Of a stretch of DNA of 35,825 nucleotides, positions 27,843 to 35,825 are shown piece by piece. The stretch is taken from positions 1 to 35,825 of the forward strand of contig JAADHS010000051.1 of NCBI GenBank assembly GCA_013151745.1. Reading direction: 5' to 3'. This stretch comes from Gammaproteobacteria bacterium (GTDB lineage Bacteria > Pseudomonadota > Gammaproteobacteria > JAADHS01). The notes under the pieces were generated by a model that was not told where the DNA came from, made no database searches, and worked only from the letters and a program-made list of their open reading frames with translations. Made by a program: the position numbers and the translations under genes. Position 1 is the first letter of the stretch, and every line of letters starts with the position of its first letter.

Positions 27843-28836
27843 CTCTTTTTCCGGATCCGATAAGGCGGCTATTTTATTGCTGAGCCTGGGTGAGCAAAAT
27901 GCTGCCGAGGTGCTAAGATTATTGGGCCCCAAAGAAGTGCAAAGCGTGGGTATGGCGATGGCCAGTATGGAAAAAGTTAACAAGGAAGAAGCGACCTCTA
28001 TATTGAACGGTTTTGTCGAAGAGGTAGAGAGTCAAACGAATTTGGGGGTTGGTTCCGAGGAGTATATTAAAACAGTCTTGTTAGATGCGTTGGGTGCAGG
28101 TAAAGCCGAAGGTGTGATAGACCGTATTTTAATGGGTCATAACAGTAAGGGTCTGGAGGCATTGAAATGGATGGACTCCAAAGCGGTAGCCGAAATAATT
28201 CGTCTAGAACATCCACAAATTATTGCGATTGTACTTTCATACCTGGATTCAGATCATGCTGCCGATGTACTTTCTCAGTTACCCATACGAACCCGCCCTG
28301 ATGTGGTGATGCGGATTGCCAGTTTGGACGGAATTCAACCGAGTGCTTTGCTGGAGCTGGATGAGATCATGGAAAAGCAATTTTCCAGTAATACTAACGT
28401 TAAATCTTCCAGTGTAGGTGGAACTAAGGTGGCCGCAGATATTTTGAATTTTTTGGATACCTCCACTGAAAGTGAAGTGATGGACAGCATCAAGGAAACG
28501 GATAGTGACTTGGGGCAAACCATAGAAGAACGTATGTTTGTTTTTGAAAATTTGTCGACACTGGATGATCGAAGCGTACAATCTTTGCTGCGTGAAGTTT
28601 CTTCAGACTCCTTGTTGCTTGCACTCAAAGGCTCTGACGAATCACTCAAAGAACTATTTTTCAAAAATATGTCTAAACGTGCGGCTGAAATGTTACGCGA
28701 TGACCTTGAGGCCAAAGGGCCGGTTCGTTTAAGTGAGGTCGAAACCGCACAAAAAGAAATTTTGGTTGTCGCCAGGCGTTTAGCAGATTCGGGGGATATT
28801 TCTCTGGGTGGAGGTTCGAGCGATGAGTTTGTCTAA
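27835..28836 (+). CDS. fliG: Flagellar motor switch protein FliG
   Basis: Rotor protein of the C ring that contacts the stator. The 333-residue product has the N-terminal FliF-binding domain, the middle EHPQIIAIVLSYL motif (near 124-136), and a C-terminal torque domain with the charged helix KGSDESLKELFFKNMSKRAAEMLRDD. Length is normal. It overlaps fliF by 8 bases at the start and fliH by 14 bases at the end. Confidence 0.97.
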   Translation: MGDSFSGSDKAAILLLSLGEQNAAEVLRLLGPKEVQSVGMAMASMEKVNKEEATSILNGFVEEVESQTNLGVGSEEYIKTVLLDALGAGKAEGVIDRILMGHNSKGLEALKWMDSKAVAEIIRLEHPQIIAIVLSYLDSDHAADVLSQLPIRTRPDVVMRIASLDGIQPSALLELDEIMEKQFSSNTNVKSSSVGGTKVAADILNFLDTSTESEVMDSIKETDSDLGQTIEERMFVFENLSTLDDRSVQSLLREVSSDSLLLALKGSDESLKELFFKNMSKRAAEMLRDDLEAKGPVRLSEVETAQKEILVVARRLADSGDISLGGGSSDEFV

Positions 28837-29452
28837 AATTGTCTCCAGTCATGATAGTGTCGCGTTAGAGCGATGGAAGTCTAAACCTGTTAATAGAGCC
28901 TCAGGTCAACAACACAATATGCTCACCGCTAGTCAACTGGAGGCGCTACAAAACCAAGCAAAGGATGAAGGCTATCAAGCCGGTTACCAGGAAGGGTTAG
29001 ATAAAGGTGAGGTTGAAATCAAGCAGAAAGTTAAGAAAATAGAAAAAATAATTTCCATGCTGAGCGTGCCTCTGGAGTTACTGGATGATACGGTAGAAAA
29101 AGAACTGACTACTTTATCGTTGATTATTGCCAGGCAAATTATTCGCAGAGAACTAAAAACAGACCCAGATCATGTCGTTGCTGTTGTTAAAGAAGCTGTT
29201 TCAGCCTTACCTTTAGCATCGCGTAATATTCGTATTATTTTACACCCTGAAGATGCCGTTTTAATCAAAGAGAATTTATCGCTTAATGAAGATGTAGGCA
29301 ATTGGTCGGTGGTCGATGACCCTGCGCTCACTCGCGGTGATTGCAAGGTTTCTACAGAAACATCACATATTGATGCAACGATAGAAAAAAGACTAACAGC
29401 CATTGCCGCAGAATTATTGGGCGGTGAGCGAGAGGGTGAAAAGCATGGCTAG
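28823..29452 (+). CDS. fliH: Flagellar export regulator FliH
   Basis: Negative regulator and stator-like partner of the FliI ATPase. The 209-residue product has an N-terminal disordered part, the GxxxG-like [17 protein letters not shown] repeat region (about 52-70), then the domain [14 protein letters not shown] ... VKEAVSALP and [16 protein letters not shown] at 28823 has GGAGG 8 bases upstream; a GTG at 28808 is in frame but less likely. It overlaps fliG by 14 bases and fliI by 8. Confidence 0.9.
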
Positions 29453-30770
29453 AAGTGCGATGTGGCAGGAGCGGTTGCGTGCCTGTGGCGAACGGGTGAA
29501 AAAGCCTGTACCGCTGATTATTGAAGGCAAACTCACTCGGATGGTGGGTTTGACTTTAGAGGCTGTAGGCTGTCAATCCCCCGTCGGTAGCCGGTGTCTG
29601 ATTTCAGGTGTAGATGGTGAAGAGATAGAAGCCGAAGTGGTCGGTTTTTCGGGAGACAAGACTTATTTAATGGCGACAGATCAGTTGCGGGGTTTGGTGC
29701 CTAATGCGCGTGTTGTGCCCAGTAATAAGGTCTATGCCGCTCGTGTAGGGAATGGTTTTCTCGGTAGGGTCATTGATGGTGGCGGACGACCACTGGATAA
29801 TAAAGGCCCTTTGTTAGCCGATGCTCAAGTTCCCCTTATGGGTGTACCGATCAATCCCTTGTCAAGAAAACCAATAAGAGAAGCCCTGGATGTCGGAGTG
29901 CGGGCAATTAATGGCATGTTAACCGTAGGTCGGGGTCAGCGCATGGGTCTGTTTGCCGGTAGCGGAGTAGGTAAAAGTGTCTTGCTGGGTATGATGACGC
30001 GCTTTACTACAGCAGATATTATTGTGGTGGGCTTGATTGGTGAGCGAGGTCGCGAGGTCAAAGAATTTATAGAGCATAGCTTGGGTCAACATGGGCTATC
30101 GCGCTCTGTTGTTGTTGCCGCCCCAGCTGACACGTCACCTGTAATGCGTTTGCATGGTGCTTTGCTGGCAACCAGTATCGCTGAATATTTTCGAGATCAA
30201 GGAAAACAAGTTTTGTTATTGATGGATTCTTTGACCCGTTTTGCTCAGGCACAACGCGAAATCGCGTTAGCTATTGGTGAACCGCCCGCAACCAAAGGTT
30301 ATCCGCCCTCTGTTTTTTCAAAACTACCTCAACTTGTTGAACGAGCAGGAAACAGTGATGTTAGTGGCGGATCGATTACCGCCTTTTACACCGTATTAGC
30401 CGAGGGGGATGATCAACAGGATCCGATCGCGGATGCTGCCCGAGCTATTTTAGATGGCCATGTGGTGTTATCCCGTCGCCTCAGTGATTCAGGGCATTAC
30501 CCTGCTATAGATATAGAGGCTTCTATCAGTCGTGTCGCACCAGAAATTACCGATGAAAAACACCAAAAAGCGACACGCCGTTTTAAACAAATGTATTCCT
30601 TGTATCAACAAAACCGTGATTTAATCAGTGTCGGTGCTTATACACCGGGCAGTGATGCAAAACTGGATGAAGCTGTTAATCTGCAAGAAAAACTAGCAAC
30701 TTATTTACAGCAAGACATGAATAAGTCTGTTCCTTTGGCGCAATCTATTGAAGAATTATCGGGTATTTGA
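29445..30770 (+). CDS. fliI: Flagellar type III export ATPase FliI
   Basis: F1-beta-like ATPase that powers flagellar protein export. The 441-residue product has Walker [15 protein letters not shown], the LIGERGREV motif, [14 protein letters not shown] and the ATPase signature [11 protein letters not shown] near the C-terminus. ATG at 29445 is chosen (AGAGGG about 9 bases upstream, start MARSAMW); an upstream frame extends into fliH. fliH overlaps it and fliJ begins 8 bases after its stop. Confidence 0.97.
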
Positions 30771-30777
30771 TCTTCTT

Positions 30778-31215
30778 ATGTATAAATCAAAAAGACTCAA
30801 ACCAATAGAGCAGCTTGCGGAAGAAAAAGAACTTGCCGCGGCCAAAAATTTGGGTGCGAGTCTGAACCTTGTTGCCGAACGAAAAAAAAAACTTGAAGAG
30901 CTTGATTTTTATCGGACTGAATACAGCCAACGTTTTCAAAGTACCAATAATGCACCTACCCTAGCTTACCAGTTTCATGATTTTCGTAATTTTTTACATC
31001 GCCTGGATTTAGTAATAGAAGAACAAAAAAAATTGCTACTTTTTAGTGAGCAAGATGTAATAGAAAAAAAGAAAATTTGGAAAGCTTGTCGAAGCAAGGC
31101 AAAAGCCTTGGGTAAGGTAGTGTCTCGTTTGGAAGTAGTGGAATTGATGCAAGAAACCCGACAAGAACAGAAAGAACTCGATGAGAGGTCATTGCGTCGA
31201 CAGCACCACAGATAA
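30778..31215 (+). CDS. fliJ: Flagellar export chaperone FliJ
   Basis: 145-residue, Lys/Glu-rich, wholly helical coiled-coil protein, as expected for the FliJ that sits in the FliI hexamer. Visible pattern: YKSKRLKPIEQLAEEKELAAAKNL, then long heptad-like segments to the C-terminus. Its position right after fliI, start at ATG 30778, supports the call. Shine-Dalgarno is weak. The usual next gene, fliK, is not here; an intergenic gap and chemotaxis genes follow. Confidence 0.85.
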   Translation: MYKSKRLKPIEQLAEEKELAAAKNLGASLNLVAERKKKLEELDFYRTEYSQRFQSTNNAPTLAYQFHDFRNFLHRLDLVIEEQKKLLLFSEQDVIEKKKIWKACRSKAKALGKVVSRLEVVELMQETRQEQKELDERSLRRQHHR

Positions 31216-31551: not shown

Positions 31552-31842
31552 ATGACAACCGGGGATGAAGTTATCAATATTGAAGTGGATCTGGGTGATG
31601 CGCTGGATATATCCCATGTCAGGGGGTTATGGGAAAAGTTGAGCAAGGCGATGGAGAGTGCAAAGTCAATAAGTTTGAAGGCCGGTCAGGTTGATGTTGC
31701 TGATACCGCTGCTTTACAGATGTTGAGTGTCTTTTTCCTCGATGTAAAAGGTCAAAATATTGTGGTGCGTTGGGACGGGGTAGCAGAGAGTATGTATAAG
31801 GCAGCGGCCTTGCTGGGTTTGACAAAACACCTGGATTTGTGA
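31552..31842 (+). CDS. STAS domain protein of the chemotaxis operon
   Basis: 96 residues, a single STAS domain of the anti-sigma-antagonist/MlaB-like type: strand IEVDLGDALDISHV, strand KSISLKAGQVDVADTAALQML with the Asp51-Thr52 pair where phosphorylation occurs in related proteins, and the end AALLGLTKHLDL. No membrane part. It is the first gene after the sigma-28 promoter and precedes cheY by 37 bases. STAS genes are known beside cheY-cheA in chemotaxis clusters of the Pseudomonas Che2/Vibrio cluster III kind; its role there is not clear to me. Confidence 0.82.
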   Translation: MTTGDEVINIEVDLGDALDISHVRGLWEKLSKAMESAKSISLKAGQVDVADTAALQMLSVFFLDVKGQNIVVRWDGVAESMYKAAALLGLTKHLDL

Positions 31843-31879: not shown

Positions 31880-32242
31880 ATGGCAAAGATACTTACAGCA
31901 GATGATTCAGCATCAATGCGACAAATGGTTAGCTTCACCTTAAAAGGAGCAGGGTACGACGTGGTTGAAGCTGTCGATGGTATGGACGCGTTTAATAAAG
32001 CGGAAAAAGAAAAAGCGGATTTGGTGATCACGGATGTGAATATGCCGAATCTTGATGGTATTGGGCTTGTTAAAAAGTTACGTGGTTTGCCAACCTATAA
32101 ATTCACACCGATTTTACTACTGACAACGGAGTCAGGAAAAGAAAAAAAATCTGAAGGACGAGCAGCTGGAGCGACGGGATGGTTAGTCAAACCATTTAAC
32201 CCGGATCAACTTTTGGCGACAGTGAAAAAAGTATTGGGGTAG
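31880..32242 (+). CDS. cheY: Chemotaxis response regulator CheY
   Basis: Single receiver domain, 120 residues. ILTADDS at the N-terminus supplies the acidic pocket, phospho-acceptor Asp52 is in ITDVNMPN, Thr is in LLTTE and Lys in VKPF. The residue that corresponds to Tyr106 of E. coli CheY is Trp (GATGWLVKPF), as in many non-enteric CheY proteins. A good ribosome site (AAAGGG) precedes the ATG. It is directly followed by cheA. Confidence 0.95.
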   Translation: MAKILTADDSASMRQMVSFTLKGAGYDVVEAVDGMDAFNKAEKEKADLVITDVNMPNLDGIGLVKKLRGLPTYKFTPILLLTTESGKEKKSEGRAAGATGWLVKPFNPDQLLATVKKVLG

Positions 32243-32248
32243 CCTGCT

Positions 32249-34387
32249 ATGTCGTTTGATATGGAACAATTTCTCGAAACCTTTTATGAAGAAAGTTTCG
32301 AGGGGCTGGATATAATGGAAACAGCATTACTGGATCTTGACGTGGGAGCCACTGATTCGGAGACAGTCAATACTATTTTTCGATCTGCCCATTCTATCAA
32401 AGGGGGAGGAGCCACCTTTGGACTTACGGATATTGCTGAATTTACTCACGGCTTAGAAACTCTTTTGGACGAAATGCGGGATGGTCGAAGGGCTGTGACG
32501 CAGGAAGCCGTTAGTTTGCTGCTGCGTTCTGTTGATTGTATCCGTGACATGTTAACCGCAGCTAAAACAAAATCTGATTTTAATCAGGACGAAGTGACGC
32601 TGGTTGATCAAGCAGTTAAAGTCATGTTGGGTTCTGAGCAAAATATTAACGAACCGGAATCGACAATAACCGTGTCCGAAAATACAGAGTCTGAGCAGAA
32701 AAAAAACTCTGGTGAAACAGGTTGGTTGATTCATTTCAGACCTCATGCAAATTTATTTCATACTGGAAATGATCCGGTTCGTATGTTTCGTGAGCTGGAG
32801 GCATTAGGCTCTCTGACTGTTGAAGCTGATATGAGTTCATTACCTGCGTTTGTTGATCTGATTCCTGAAGATGCTTGTATGGGCTGGGTTATTACGCTAC
32901 TCGGTGATGTGACACGTGAAGATATTGATGACGTTTTTGCTTGGGTGGAAGATGAATGTGATCTTACCATTACATCACTTAACGATGGGGCTGTAACCGC
33001 GATAGAACCTGTTTCTGAATCCATCGTTGTTGAGCCAGAAAAAGGAAAAATAGAAGTTGAGGCGAAACCGGTCGTAGCGATAAAATCGGTACCGCCTCCT
33101 GAAGAACAACGTCAAGGGGATGATCGACGTAAGATCAATGAACGTCGTCAAACAGCAAAGCCTACCGGGGAAAGTACCTCTATTAGAGTGGGTATCGATA
33201 AAGTCGATGCCTTGATCAATATGGTGGGTGAATTGGTGATTACCCAATCCATGCTGAATCAATTAAGCAAAGATTTTGATATGAGTCGCCTTTCCAAATT
33301 GCAAGAAGGGGTGACGCTGTTAGAGCGCAATACTCGAGAACTTCAAGAGAATGTGATGCGCATTCGCATGTTACCGATTAGTTTTGCCTTTAATCGTTTT
33401 CCCAGAATGGTACATGATTTGTCGCAAAAATTGGATAAAAAAATAGAGTTAAAGTTGTTAGGTGAGCAAACCGAGCTTGATAAAACGGTCATGGAAAAAA
33501 TTGGCGACCCTTTAGTTCATTTAGTTCGTAATTCCCTGGATCATGGTTTAGAAACGCCGGATGTACGTCAACAGGCAGGAAAATCGGAAACCGGAACACT
33601 ACAGCTTAATGCCTTTCATCAAGGTGGCAATATTGTCATTGAAATTAGTGATGATGGCGCGGGTCTGAATAAAGAACGTATTCTGAATAAAGCCAAAGAA
33701 AAAGGCTTGGTCGGAGTTGATGAGGTTTTGAGTGATGACAAGATTCATGAATTGATTTTCCGGCCTGGATTTTCTACCGCCGAAGTTGTGAGTGATGTCT
33801 CGGGTCGTGGCGTGGGTATGGATGTTGTAAAACGTAACATCAAAGATTTGAGTGGAACGATTGAAGTGGCTTCAGAAGAAGGCGTCGGTAGTAAATTTAC
33901 GATTCGCTTGCCACTCACTCTGGCCATTCTTGATGGTCAATTAGTTAAGGTGGGAGAGGAAACCTACATTATTCCTTTGGTTTCGATTGTCGAATCATTA
34001 CAAATGAAAAAAGAACACATCAATATCATTGCCGGAAAGTCAGAAGTTTATAAAATGAGAGAAGATTATTTGCCTATCGTTAGGTTGCATGGCTTGTTTG
34101 ATCATGAAAAAGACGAAAGTATTTTAGACAATGCTTTGCTCGTGGTGGTTGAAGGTGAGGGCCAACGCGTGGGCCTAGTTGTCGATGATTTGCTCGGCCA
34201 ACAACAAGTTGTTATTAAAAGTCTGGAATCTAATTATCGAAAAGTAGATGGTGTGTCTGGCGCGACCATACTGGGCGATGGAACCGTTGCATTGATTTTG
34301 GATATTGCAGGGTTGATTGTATGTGCTGAGCGTGTGAATTATGGACAAAGCGAGTCTGTCGATAAAAATTATATAGGTATGGGATAG
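32249..34387 (+). CDS. cheA: Chemotaxis histidine kinase CheA
   Basis: 712 residues. An HPt domain at 1-110 carries His48 in FRSAHSIKGGGATFG. A second domain (about 160-250, WLIHFRPHANLFHTGNDPVRM) is the P2-like module of this CheA type. The dimerisation helices start near 313 (IDKVDALINMVGELVITQS), the ATPase has N box HLVRNSLDHGLE near 420, ISDDGAGLN near 467 and GRGVGMDVV, and a CheW-like domain ends the protein (from about 560). Start 6 bases after cheY. Likely signals to CheY and to a methylesterase beyond the window. Confidence 0.96.
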   Translation: MSFDMEQFLETFYEESFEGLDIMETALLDLDVGATDSETVNTIFRSAHSIKGGGATFGLTDIAEFTHGLETLLDEMRDGRRAVTQEAVSLLLRSVDCIRDMLTAAKTKSDFNQDEVTLVDQAVKVMLGSEQNINEPESTITVSENTESEQKKNSGETGWLIHFRPHANLFHTGNDPVRMFRELEALGSLTVEADMSSLPAFVDLIPEDACMGWVITLLGDVTREDIDDVFAWVEDECDLTITSLNDGAVTAIEPVSESIVVEPEKGKIEVEAKPVVAIKSVPPPEEQRQGDDRRKINERRQTAKPTGESTSIRVGIDKVDALINMVGELVITQSMLNQLSKDFDMSRLSKLQEGVTLLERNTRELQENVMRIRMLPISFAFNRFPRMVHDLSQKLDKKIELKLLGEQTELDKTVMEKIGDPLVHLVRNSLDHGLETPDVRQQAGKSETGTLQLNAFHQGGNIVIEISDDGAGLNKERILNKAKEKGLVGVDEVLSDDKIHELIFRPGFSTAEVVSDVSGRGVGMDVVKRNIKDLSGTIEVASEEGVGSKFTIRLPLTLAILDGQLVKVGEETYIIPLVSIVESLQMKKEHINIIAGKSEVYKMREDYLPIVRLHGLFDHEKDESILDNALLVVVEGEGQRVGLVVDDLLGQQQVVIKSLESNYRKVDGVSGATILGDGTVALILDIAGLIVCAERVNYGQSESVDKNYIGMG

Positions 34388-34399
34388 GAGTAAGGCAGT

Positions 34400-34909
34400 A
34401 TGAATATTGAGGAGGCAGTCAATTCAGGTGGTGTACATGGTGCCGCAGAAGGTATGAATCAGTATCTGACATTTATTATGGCTGAAGAAGAATATGCGGT
34501 TGATATTTTACGTGTCCAGGAAATAAAAGGATGGGATGTCGCCACCGCATTGCCTAATACACCAGACTACGTCAGAGGTGTGATAAACCTGAGGGGGACA
34601 ATCGTTCCTATTATTGATCTTCGGCAACGGTTTGGTCTGGACTCTATTCAATATGGAGCGACAACGGTGGTGATTGTATTGAAAGTACTTTCTGATGCTG
34701 GAGAACGAATTATGGGTGTGGTGGTCGATGCGGTATCTGAAGTCTATAACGTTTCTCCAGATGAAATAAAGCCTGCACCCAGTTTTGGTGAAGTTCAAAA
34801 AGAAGTTGTGAAGGGTTTGGCTACCGTTGAAAATAAAATGATTATTATTCTCGACATTGATCAGCTTTTAAACGAGCGAGAGCTACAAATGGCTACCGCC
34901 AGCCAATAA
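34400..34909 (+). CDS. cheW: Chemotaxis coupling protein CheW
   Basis: 169 residues linking receptors to CheA. The CheW fold is plain: YLTFIMAEEEYAVDILRVQEIKG, then PNTPDYVRGVINLRGTIVPIIDLRQRFG, ending in the helix near IILDIDQLLNE. An extra 20 residues precede the domain. AGGAG lies 8 bases upstream of the ATG. It follows cheA by 12 bases and a small gene follows. Confidence 0.95.
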   Translation: MNIEEAVNSGGVHGAAEGMNQYLTFIMAEEEYAVDILRVQEIKGWDVATALPNTPDYVRGVINLRGTIVPIIDLRQRFGLDSIQYGATTVVIVLKVLSDAGERIMGVVVDAVSEVYNVSPDEIKPAPSFGEVQKEVVKGLATVENKMIIILDIDQLLNERELQMATASQ

Positions 34910-34934: not shown

Positions 34935-35105
34935 ATGAATAAAAATAAATTATCAACAGATGATTTTTTTCTGAATACGACTTCAGCAAAGAAGCAAGAA
35001 CAAGATATAAAAAGAGACAAATTTTTTATATCGAATAAAGTTGTACGATGTCCCGTACTGACACCATTGGAGCGCTTGGCAGCAGATTTGGCATGGAATG
35101 GATAA
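34935..35105 (+). CDS. Small uncharacterised protein between cheW and the globin receptor
   Basis: A 56-codon frame from ATG (AAGG 10 bases upstream) to TAA that fills the 208-base gap between cheW and the receptor gene, leaving 12 bases before the next ATG. The product is Lys/Asp-rich at first (KKQEQDIKRDK), then FFISNKVVRCPVL and the end TPLERLAADLAWNG. No signal or membrane segment. Codon use and spacing fit a real gene of the operon, but I do not recognise it and cannot test conservation. Confidence 0.55.
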   Translation: MNKNKLSTDDFFLNTTSAKKQEQDIKRDKFFISNKVVRCPVLTPLERLAADLAWNG

Positions 35106-35117
35106 AAGGATTTTGAA

Positions 35118-35825
35118 ATGAAAACTGGAGCAAATAAAAGGAACAACATCGATCCTCGTTTGGCTGAGATTGATTCAAACTTACTGAAACAAACCTTTGA
35201 GGCTTTGATCCCGGAAGGGGAAGCCTTGTGTGTGCGTTTCTATGAGAGATTATTTGATCAATACCCAGAGGTGAAGCCCCTTTTTGAAAAAAGTGATATG
35301 GCGAAGCAGAGTAAAAAGCTGTTATCTGCCCTTTCATTAGTCGTTTCCAGTTTTGTTAAAAAAGAGCTTCCGATTGATGCGCTTAAACAATTGGGTGAAC
35401 GACATCAAACCTATGGCGCAGTAGAAGGGCATTATCAAGCCGTAGCAGAAGTATTGTTGGGTGTGATGCAAGAGTTTTCTGGACAAATTTGGACGAATGA
35501 AGTGGAAAAGGTATGGCGCGATGCATTAAATATCGTCGCGACGACGATGATAAGTGCATACAGTATAACGGAGGGTTCATCAATGGAATCAACTAAACAA
35601 ACAGTACAGGTGGAGATGGAGAGCAAGGACGTGGAAAATAATGATACGCAGCACATGCAGTCCGCAGTCGACAATGCGATGACGGCAATCATGATGGTTG
35701 ATCTCGATTTAATTATTACTTACGCGAATAAAGCAACGATTTCTCTGCTCAAAAAACACGCTGATGCACTCAATGCACTCTACTCAGGGTTCTCTGCTGA
35801 CAATATCGTCGGTACTTGTATTGAT
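35118..35825 (+). CDS. Globin-PAS chemoreceptor (methyl-accepting chemotaxis protein), truncated by the window end
   Basis: The first 236 residues are present; the frame is open to the window end. Residues 15-150 form a haemoglobin domain of the flavohaemoglobin/Vitreoscilla type: RFYERLFDQYPEVKPLF with B10 Tyr42, E7 Gln64 (AKQSKKLLSAL), and the proximal F8 His96 in GERHQTYGAVEGHY. A charged linker (155-178) leads to a PAS domain from about 180 (AVDNAMTAIMMVDLDLIITYAN), whose end NIVGTCID matches the PAS found in Aer2-like receptors. The signalling domain must lie beyond 35825. AAGGA precedes the ATG. Being in the cheYAW operon, it is probably an O2 or NO receptor. Confidence 0.85.
   Translation, partial: MKTGANKRNNIDPRLAEIDSNLLKQTFEALIPEGEALCVRFYERLFDQYPEVKPLFEKSDMAKQSKKLLSALSLVVSSFVKKELPIDALKQLGERHQTYGAVEGHYQAVAEVLLGVMQEFSGQIWTNEVEKVWRDALNIVATTMISAYSITEGSSMESTKQTVQVEMESKDVENNDTQHMQSAVDNAMTAIMMVDLDLIITYANKATISLLKKHADALNALYSGFSADNIVGTCID

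Follow-up and report, generated by a model that had tools for sequence, protein, structure and literature searches.

What kind of receptor spans the end of this contig, and what would a globin do in it? The window, that is, the whole stretch of 35,825 nucleotides that was analysed, is contig C19 of the source genome. It ends at position 35825 inside a gene whose product begins with a globin domain and runs on into a PAS domain (Table 1). Upstream of this gene lie cheY, cheA and cheW, with a STAS gene in front of them, as expected from an earlier note on this DNA, which had placed the gene in a cheYAW operon. A 56-codon ORF (window 34935-35105; MNKNKLSTDDFF...ADLAWNG) lies between cheW and the receptor gene.

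Table 1. Features of the chemosensory cluster and of the receptor gene in the window
Feature	Position	Strand	Remarks
STAS protein (anti-sigma-factor-antagonist type)	31552..31842	+	first F7 cluster gene
cheY	31880..32242	+	
cheA	32249..34387	+	F7-like
cheW	34400..34909	+	
5' part of globin-PAS-MCP receptor gene	35118..35825	+	236 aa, frame open to contig end
Receptor start ATG	35118	+	AGGA-like RBS about 10 bases upstream
F-family globin domain, residues 18-149	35169..35564	+	Pfam and structure matches
Tyr42 (B10), distal haem pocket	35241..35243	+	invariant, 56/56 (window plus 55 relatives)
Gln64 (E7), distal haem pocket	35307..35309	+	invariant, 56/56
His96 (F8), proximal haem ligand	35403..35405	+	kept in 55/56
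Globin-PAS linker, residues 150-177	35565..35648	+	pLDDT <50 at 152-171; flexible
First half of Aer2-type PAS, residues 178-236	35649..35825	+	ends NIVGTCID, just before FHKNP haem-His motif

We asked to which class the globin belongs. Pfam Globin (PF00042) matched the receptor ORF with 55.3 bits (cut-off 22), and Protoglobin reached only 20.7 bits against a cut-off of 25. The nearest solved globins were the F-family bacterial globins HGbRL, Hell's Gate globin I (HGbI) and Vitreoscilla Hb. An AlphaFold model of the 236-residue fragment (mean pLDDT 88.5) consists of a 3/3 globin followed by the start of a PAS domain, and its best PDB match was 3s1i, the oxygen-bound form of HGbI (TM 0.91 by target, 33% identity). 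In an alignment with Vitreoscilla Hb, HGbI and HGbRL, Tyr42, Gln64 and His96 fall on B10, E7 and F8, the positions to which the earlier note had assigned them in an Hmp/Vitreoscilla-like globin. With Protoglobin below its cut-off and F-family globins as the PDB matches, a HemAT-type (S-family) globin is ruled out, in line with the difference of class seen earlier. A flavohaemoglobin (Hmp) was also rejected, since there is no C-terminal FAD/NAD reductase and the globin is followed by PAS and, in relatives, by an MCP domain as well. For the part after the linker, the NCBIfam Aer2 model NF041847 matched window residues 167-236 (2.6e-14), which confirms the Aer2-like PAS domain with its NIVGTCID motif; the Pfam PAS score was slightly under its cut-off because the domain is truncated by the contig end.

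A search of the same genome with the PAS-to-MCP part of a relative found contig C17. From base 3 on, this contig has an open frame that codes for the end of a last PAS domain, a HAMP domain (HAMP_2, 53.9 bits), an MCP signalling domain (MCPsignal, 195 bits) and the tail DWEEF, a CheR-docking tail that is mostly EWEEF in relatives; the GWEEF tail of P. aeruginosa McpB binds CheR2 (PMC6739360). NF041847 matched C17 with 566 bits over model positions 391-804, and the window fragment with 52 bits. Downstream of the receptor end, C17 carries cheR-cheD-cheB, a response-regulator/phosphatase gene (RsbU-like) and fliK. No exact overlap was found between the ends of C19 and C17. The GC content of the two contigs matches (0.420 and 0.417), the source genome yielded no Aer2-type C-terminal half other than that on C17, and the gene order of C19 plus C17 is the same as in the related loci L027, L059 and L105. 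Among the relatives, the upstream neighbour of the receptor gene is cheW or parA in 66 of 67 cases and the downstream neighbour is cheR in 48 of 55. From this synteny on both sides, we strongly infer that C17 continues the window gene and that the middle is missing from the assembly; the missing part would hold the remainder of the first PAS domain and further PAS domains. Given this join, the earlier prediction of a chemoreceptor with an MCP domain past position 35825 is borne out. A GGDEF or other output was rejected in view of the MCP domain on C17 and in relatives. The number of membrane segments, which the same note had proposed to count, is zero by hydropathy in both fragments (maxima of 1.33 and 1.26 versus 2.69 for a membrane MCP on contig C65) and across 83 relatives.

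Scanning contigs with just the window protein as query brought up no relatives, and a 9-row alignment was too diverse as a query; a 4-row alignment returned 80 loci, including Methylophaga, Thioalkalivibrio sulfidiphilus, Thiohalobacter, Thiogranum, Kineobactrum, Mangrovimicrobium and a Nitrospirota bin. When the class was sampled evenly, 44 of 369 genomes had globin and PAS in a single ORF, so their pairing is not due to chance. In a sample across the phylum that favoured well-studied genera, it was only 3 of 399; thus, the abundance depends strongly on sampling. The globin was present in 43 of the 49 genomes with a close Aer2-type PAS, a share that the globin-bearing query biases upwards. 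Complete relatives scored 827 and 1064 bits to NF041847 and did not reach the curated cut-off of 1200. Judged by sequence score, the window receptor is a relative of the Vibrio Aer2 equivalog described by this model, not that exact equivalog.

The earlier note knew of no characterised receptor with this domain order. The order is in fact common in gammaproteobacterial genomes, and in 2018 Sharma et al. reported the combination PAS+Bac_globin+MCPsignal, in silico, in 7 proteins among 8,075 genomes (PMC6194562). Their list comprises Corallococcus coralloides Cc_4972, Halioglobus japonicus, Nitrospira defluvii and four others. Since Halieaceae and Nitrospirota loci are among the relatives found here, the Halioglobus and Nitrospira entries probably belong to the family of the window receptor. 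A 2026 review still treats the PAS+Bac_globin+MCP case as unique and only predicted (PMC13401364), and our literature search found no experimental characterisation and no haem or O2 measurement for the globin-bearing subfamily. Some proteins depart from the usual build: one receptor has six tandem globins and then four PAS domains (L081:6646-12165), another four or more globins in tandem, likewise ahead of four PAS domains (L065:1-4602), and that of L073 one globin and seven PAS domains. Cyanobacterial proteins from Okeania (L117, L118, L119) carry two or three tandem globins of this receptor's type and no MCP domain; in L118 and L119 a strongly hydrophobic stretch follows the globins, and L119 also has pentapeptide-like repeats.

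How many haems might one subunit hold? Both Aer2 haem residues, the axial His and the distal Trp, were kept in 212 of 215 PAS domains from 83 distinct related receptors, a figure in which loss of the His is possibly somewhat under-counted, as the PAS profile was made from domains bearing the His motif. The aligned positions are those that we take to be H234 and W283 of Aer2, and the spacing of 49 between His and Trp in the relatives fits this numbering. The best PDB matches of these PAS domains were V. cholerae Aer2 (6CEQ) and P. aeruginosa Aer2 (3VOL, 4HI4). In the source genome, the window PAS sequence stops just before the haem His, and the PAS piece on C17 retains only the part with the Trp (VEW at the start of the contig). 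The relatives have 1-7 PAS domains per receptor, mostly 2-3, and three in each of two other genomes of the source genome's family (L027 and L029). Because the relatives mostly carry two or three PAS-haem domains, the subunit probably binds more than two haems, one in the globin and two or more in PAS domains. Of the two potential haem sites proposed earlier, the idea of several sites in one receptor is upheld, but not the number two.

The window CheA scored 640 bits to the E. coli CheA model, and the two other CheAs of the genome 387 and 449. One of the other systems, cheY-cheZ-cheA-cheB, is on contig C39 beside flhF/fleN/fliA-type genes, and the third CheA is on C65. The order STAS-cheY-cheA-cheW-aer2-cheR-cheD-cheB plus phosphatase, with an F6 system elsewhere in the genome, is that of a stage-1 F7 cluster (PMC7184735), an assignment based on gene order and CheA score and not on an F7 class HMM. 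Three genes of stage-1 F7, an mcpA-like receptor, a second cheW and a second STAS, were not seen here, where there is one cheW only. The cluster lies within a flagellar fli cluster, with fliH-fliI-fliJ before it (window 28808-31215) and fliK after it; the same was observed at L039:5827-7065. The output of stage-1 F7 arrays is possibly a stress response and not the motor (PMC7184735). As this may hold here too, with a STAS/phosphatase branch as the output, and a second che system lies beside the flhF/fleN/fliA-type genes, aerotaxis as the behaviour is uncertain.

We consider it likely that the gene encodes a soluble cytoplasmic Aer2 (McpB)-type receptor of the ancestral F7 cluster, with an F-family globin fused before tandem haem-PAS domains, and that it is an O2 sensor. 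"Aer2 receptor with an added globin" is the better description because all that is seen from the PAS domain on fits the Aer2 model. Sensing of O2 in E. coli is reported for Aer2 receptors that have 1-3 haem-PAS domains (PMC13401364). By analogy, both parts of the receptor would bind haem and O2: the globin in a Tyr B10/Gln E7 pocket, as in the very-high-affinity HGbI, and the PAS domains in Aer2 His/Trp pockets. The conformational change would then travel in line along the stacked dimer, through HAMP into the MCP hairpin, and determine how active CheA is; CheR would dock at the C-terminal DWEEF, and CheR, CheB and CheD would reset the receptor. As to the division of labour, one idea, drawn from the high-affinity O2 binding of HGbI (PMC4476040), is that the globin, lying distally, would act as a high-affinity stage and widen or adjust the range of O2 to which the PAS stages respond.

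The same globin was also found outside the receptor. In five loci it is inserted into CheA, between the Hpt and dimerisation domains (L026:4389-6884, L076:5056-7476, L081:2687-5329, L107:4618-7146 and L116:4967-7564). It is fused to CheW C-terminally in L053:198-1148 and internally in L108:7954-8898 (L108/L161) and L156:454-1398, and a DPLAWL-globin-STAS fusion lies beside the receptor in L159:3583-4530 and L160:1118-2071. The copies in CheA and CheW retain the residues at B10, E7 and F8. In L076 and in L116, the CheA globin groups with the receptor globin of its own genome (support 100/99 and 99/96), and the globin tree, although weakly resolved, suggests that the CheA, CheW and STAS fusions arose several times independently. 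No papers on globin fusions to CheA, CheW or STAS were found in open-access text. It is possible, but we hold it only tentatively, that the haem globin is a shared, re-used module of the F7 array, through which the array would sense O2 at more than one level, or by whose O2-dependent pairing its components would be coupled; the receptor would then be the default site of the globin, with repeated independent additions to CheA, to CheW and to the cluster's own STAS output regulator. These fusions, and the grouping of the L076 and L116 CheA globins with the receptor globins of their genomes, would also suit a globin that is mainly a haem-dependent dimerisation or scaffold module by which the receptor is linked to the kinase and the coupling protein within the array. 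We think this unlikely, as the haem-pocket residues are as conserved in these copies as in the receptors, which a purely structural role would not need, and in most clusters the globin is confined to the receptor.

Instead of signalling, the globin might buffer or scavenge O2 or NO and so protect the PAS haems or supply them. Both NO dioxygenases and single-domain globins that handle O2 belong to the F family, whose typical pocket is found here, and the six tandem globins of the L081 receptor look like capacity more than a switch. Against this, one globin per receptor is the rule, the position apparently matching the H23 Glu of flavohaemoglobin is Tyr in 43 of 56 sequences, and the receptors have no FAD/NAD reductase for autonomous NO turnover. 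We therefore regard this role as distinctly improbable. As to the NO sensing that the earlier note had offered beside O2, nothing points to a specific NO role beyond what holds for any haem globin, and the reductase domain for NO dioxygenase turnover is missing. Finally, that C17 belongs to another receptor and the window gene ends otherwise, for example without an MCP output, is very improbable: the contig ends do not overlap, but the two-sided synteny recurs in dozens of relatives, the GC is the same, and C17, the genome's sole Aer2-type C-terminal half with 566 bits to the Aer2 model, opens within the last PAS at its first bases.

Some relatives carry a further element at the receptor N-terminus, the motif (M)GxDPLAWM/L, which occurred only in clusters with a ParA gene: both were found in 35 cases, ParA only in 9, the motif only in 0 and neither in 33 (Fisher p 8e-14, uncorrected for shared ancestry). 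Motif-bearing receptors include those of L023, L026 and L047-L051. Four of the nine ParA-only loci have the motif in another ORF, apart from the receptor. In L159/L160 the STAS-globin protein bears it. The window locus has neither the ParA gene nor the motif. MGxDPLAWM is a candidate ParA-contact peptide, and the pairing resembles TlpT-PpfA of Rhodobacter sphaeroides, in which the receptor N-terminus acts on a ParA (PMC3964821). This rule offers a testable handle on the positioning of soluble arrays.

The receptor would join globin and haem-PAS, two known haem strategies for oxygen taxis, in one protein. Its build is not a rarity; it is common in sulfur-oxidising, methylotrophic and other gammaproteobacteria, many of them uncultured. 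The E. coli chemotaxis system descends from the stage-1 F7 system, about whose input little is understood; a receptor with a globin and several haems would make O2 the testable input. The globins inside CheA, CheW and STAS are natural constructs with which to ask if the kinase or the array lattice can be a direct target of gas sensing.

How does the receptor compare with known systems? Like Aer2/McpB, which has one PAS domain in P. aeruginosa, two in V. cholerae and three in V. vulnificus, it is soluble by the hydropathy of its two fragments and combines Aer2-type PAS domains, which in relatives carry the axial His and the Trp, with HAMP, an MCP hairpin, a WEEF-type CheR tail and an F7 cluster containing cheR-cheD-cheB. 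Unlike Aer2/McpB, it adds an N-terminal F-family globin, and some relatives have up to seven PAS domains or several globins; the globin-bearing receptors also lack the N-terminal HAMPs of P. aeruginosa Aer2. The proteins of Sharma et al. share the domain combination, are soluble and were predicted to be O2 receptors; they were annotated with the truncated-globin model PF01152, and in the accessible part of that paper they are linked neither with Aer2 and its haem residues nor with F7 clusters (PMC6194562). As in HemAT and other globin-coupled MCPs, an N-terminal haem globin would feed a soluble MCP, but HemAT has an S-family sensor globin and no PAS, whereas here an F-family globin is followed by predicted PAS-haem domains and HAMP. 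The closest solved globins, HGbRL of Methylacidiphilum and HGbI, share Tyr B10 and Gln E7. HGbRL is likewise an F-type globin fused to a signalling domain, but its output is Roadblock/LC7 and HGbI has none, whereas that of the window receptor is an MCP.
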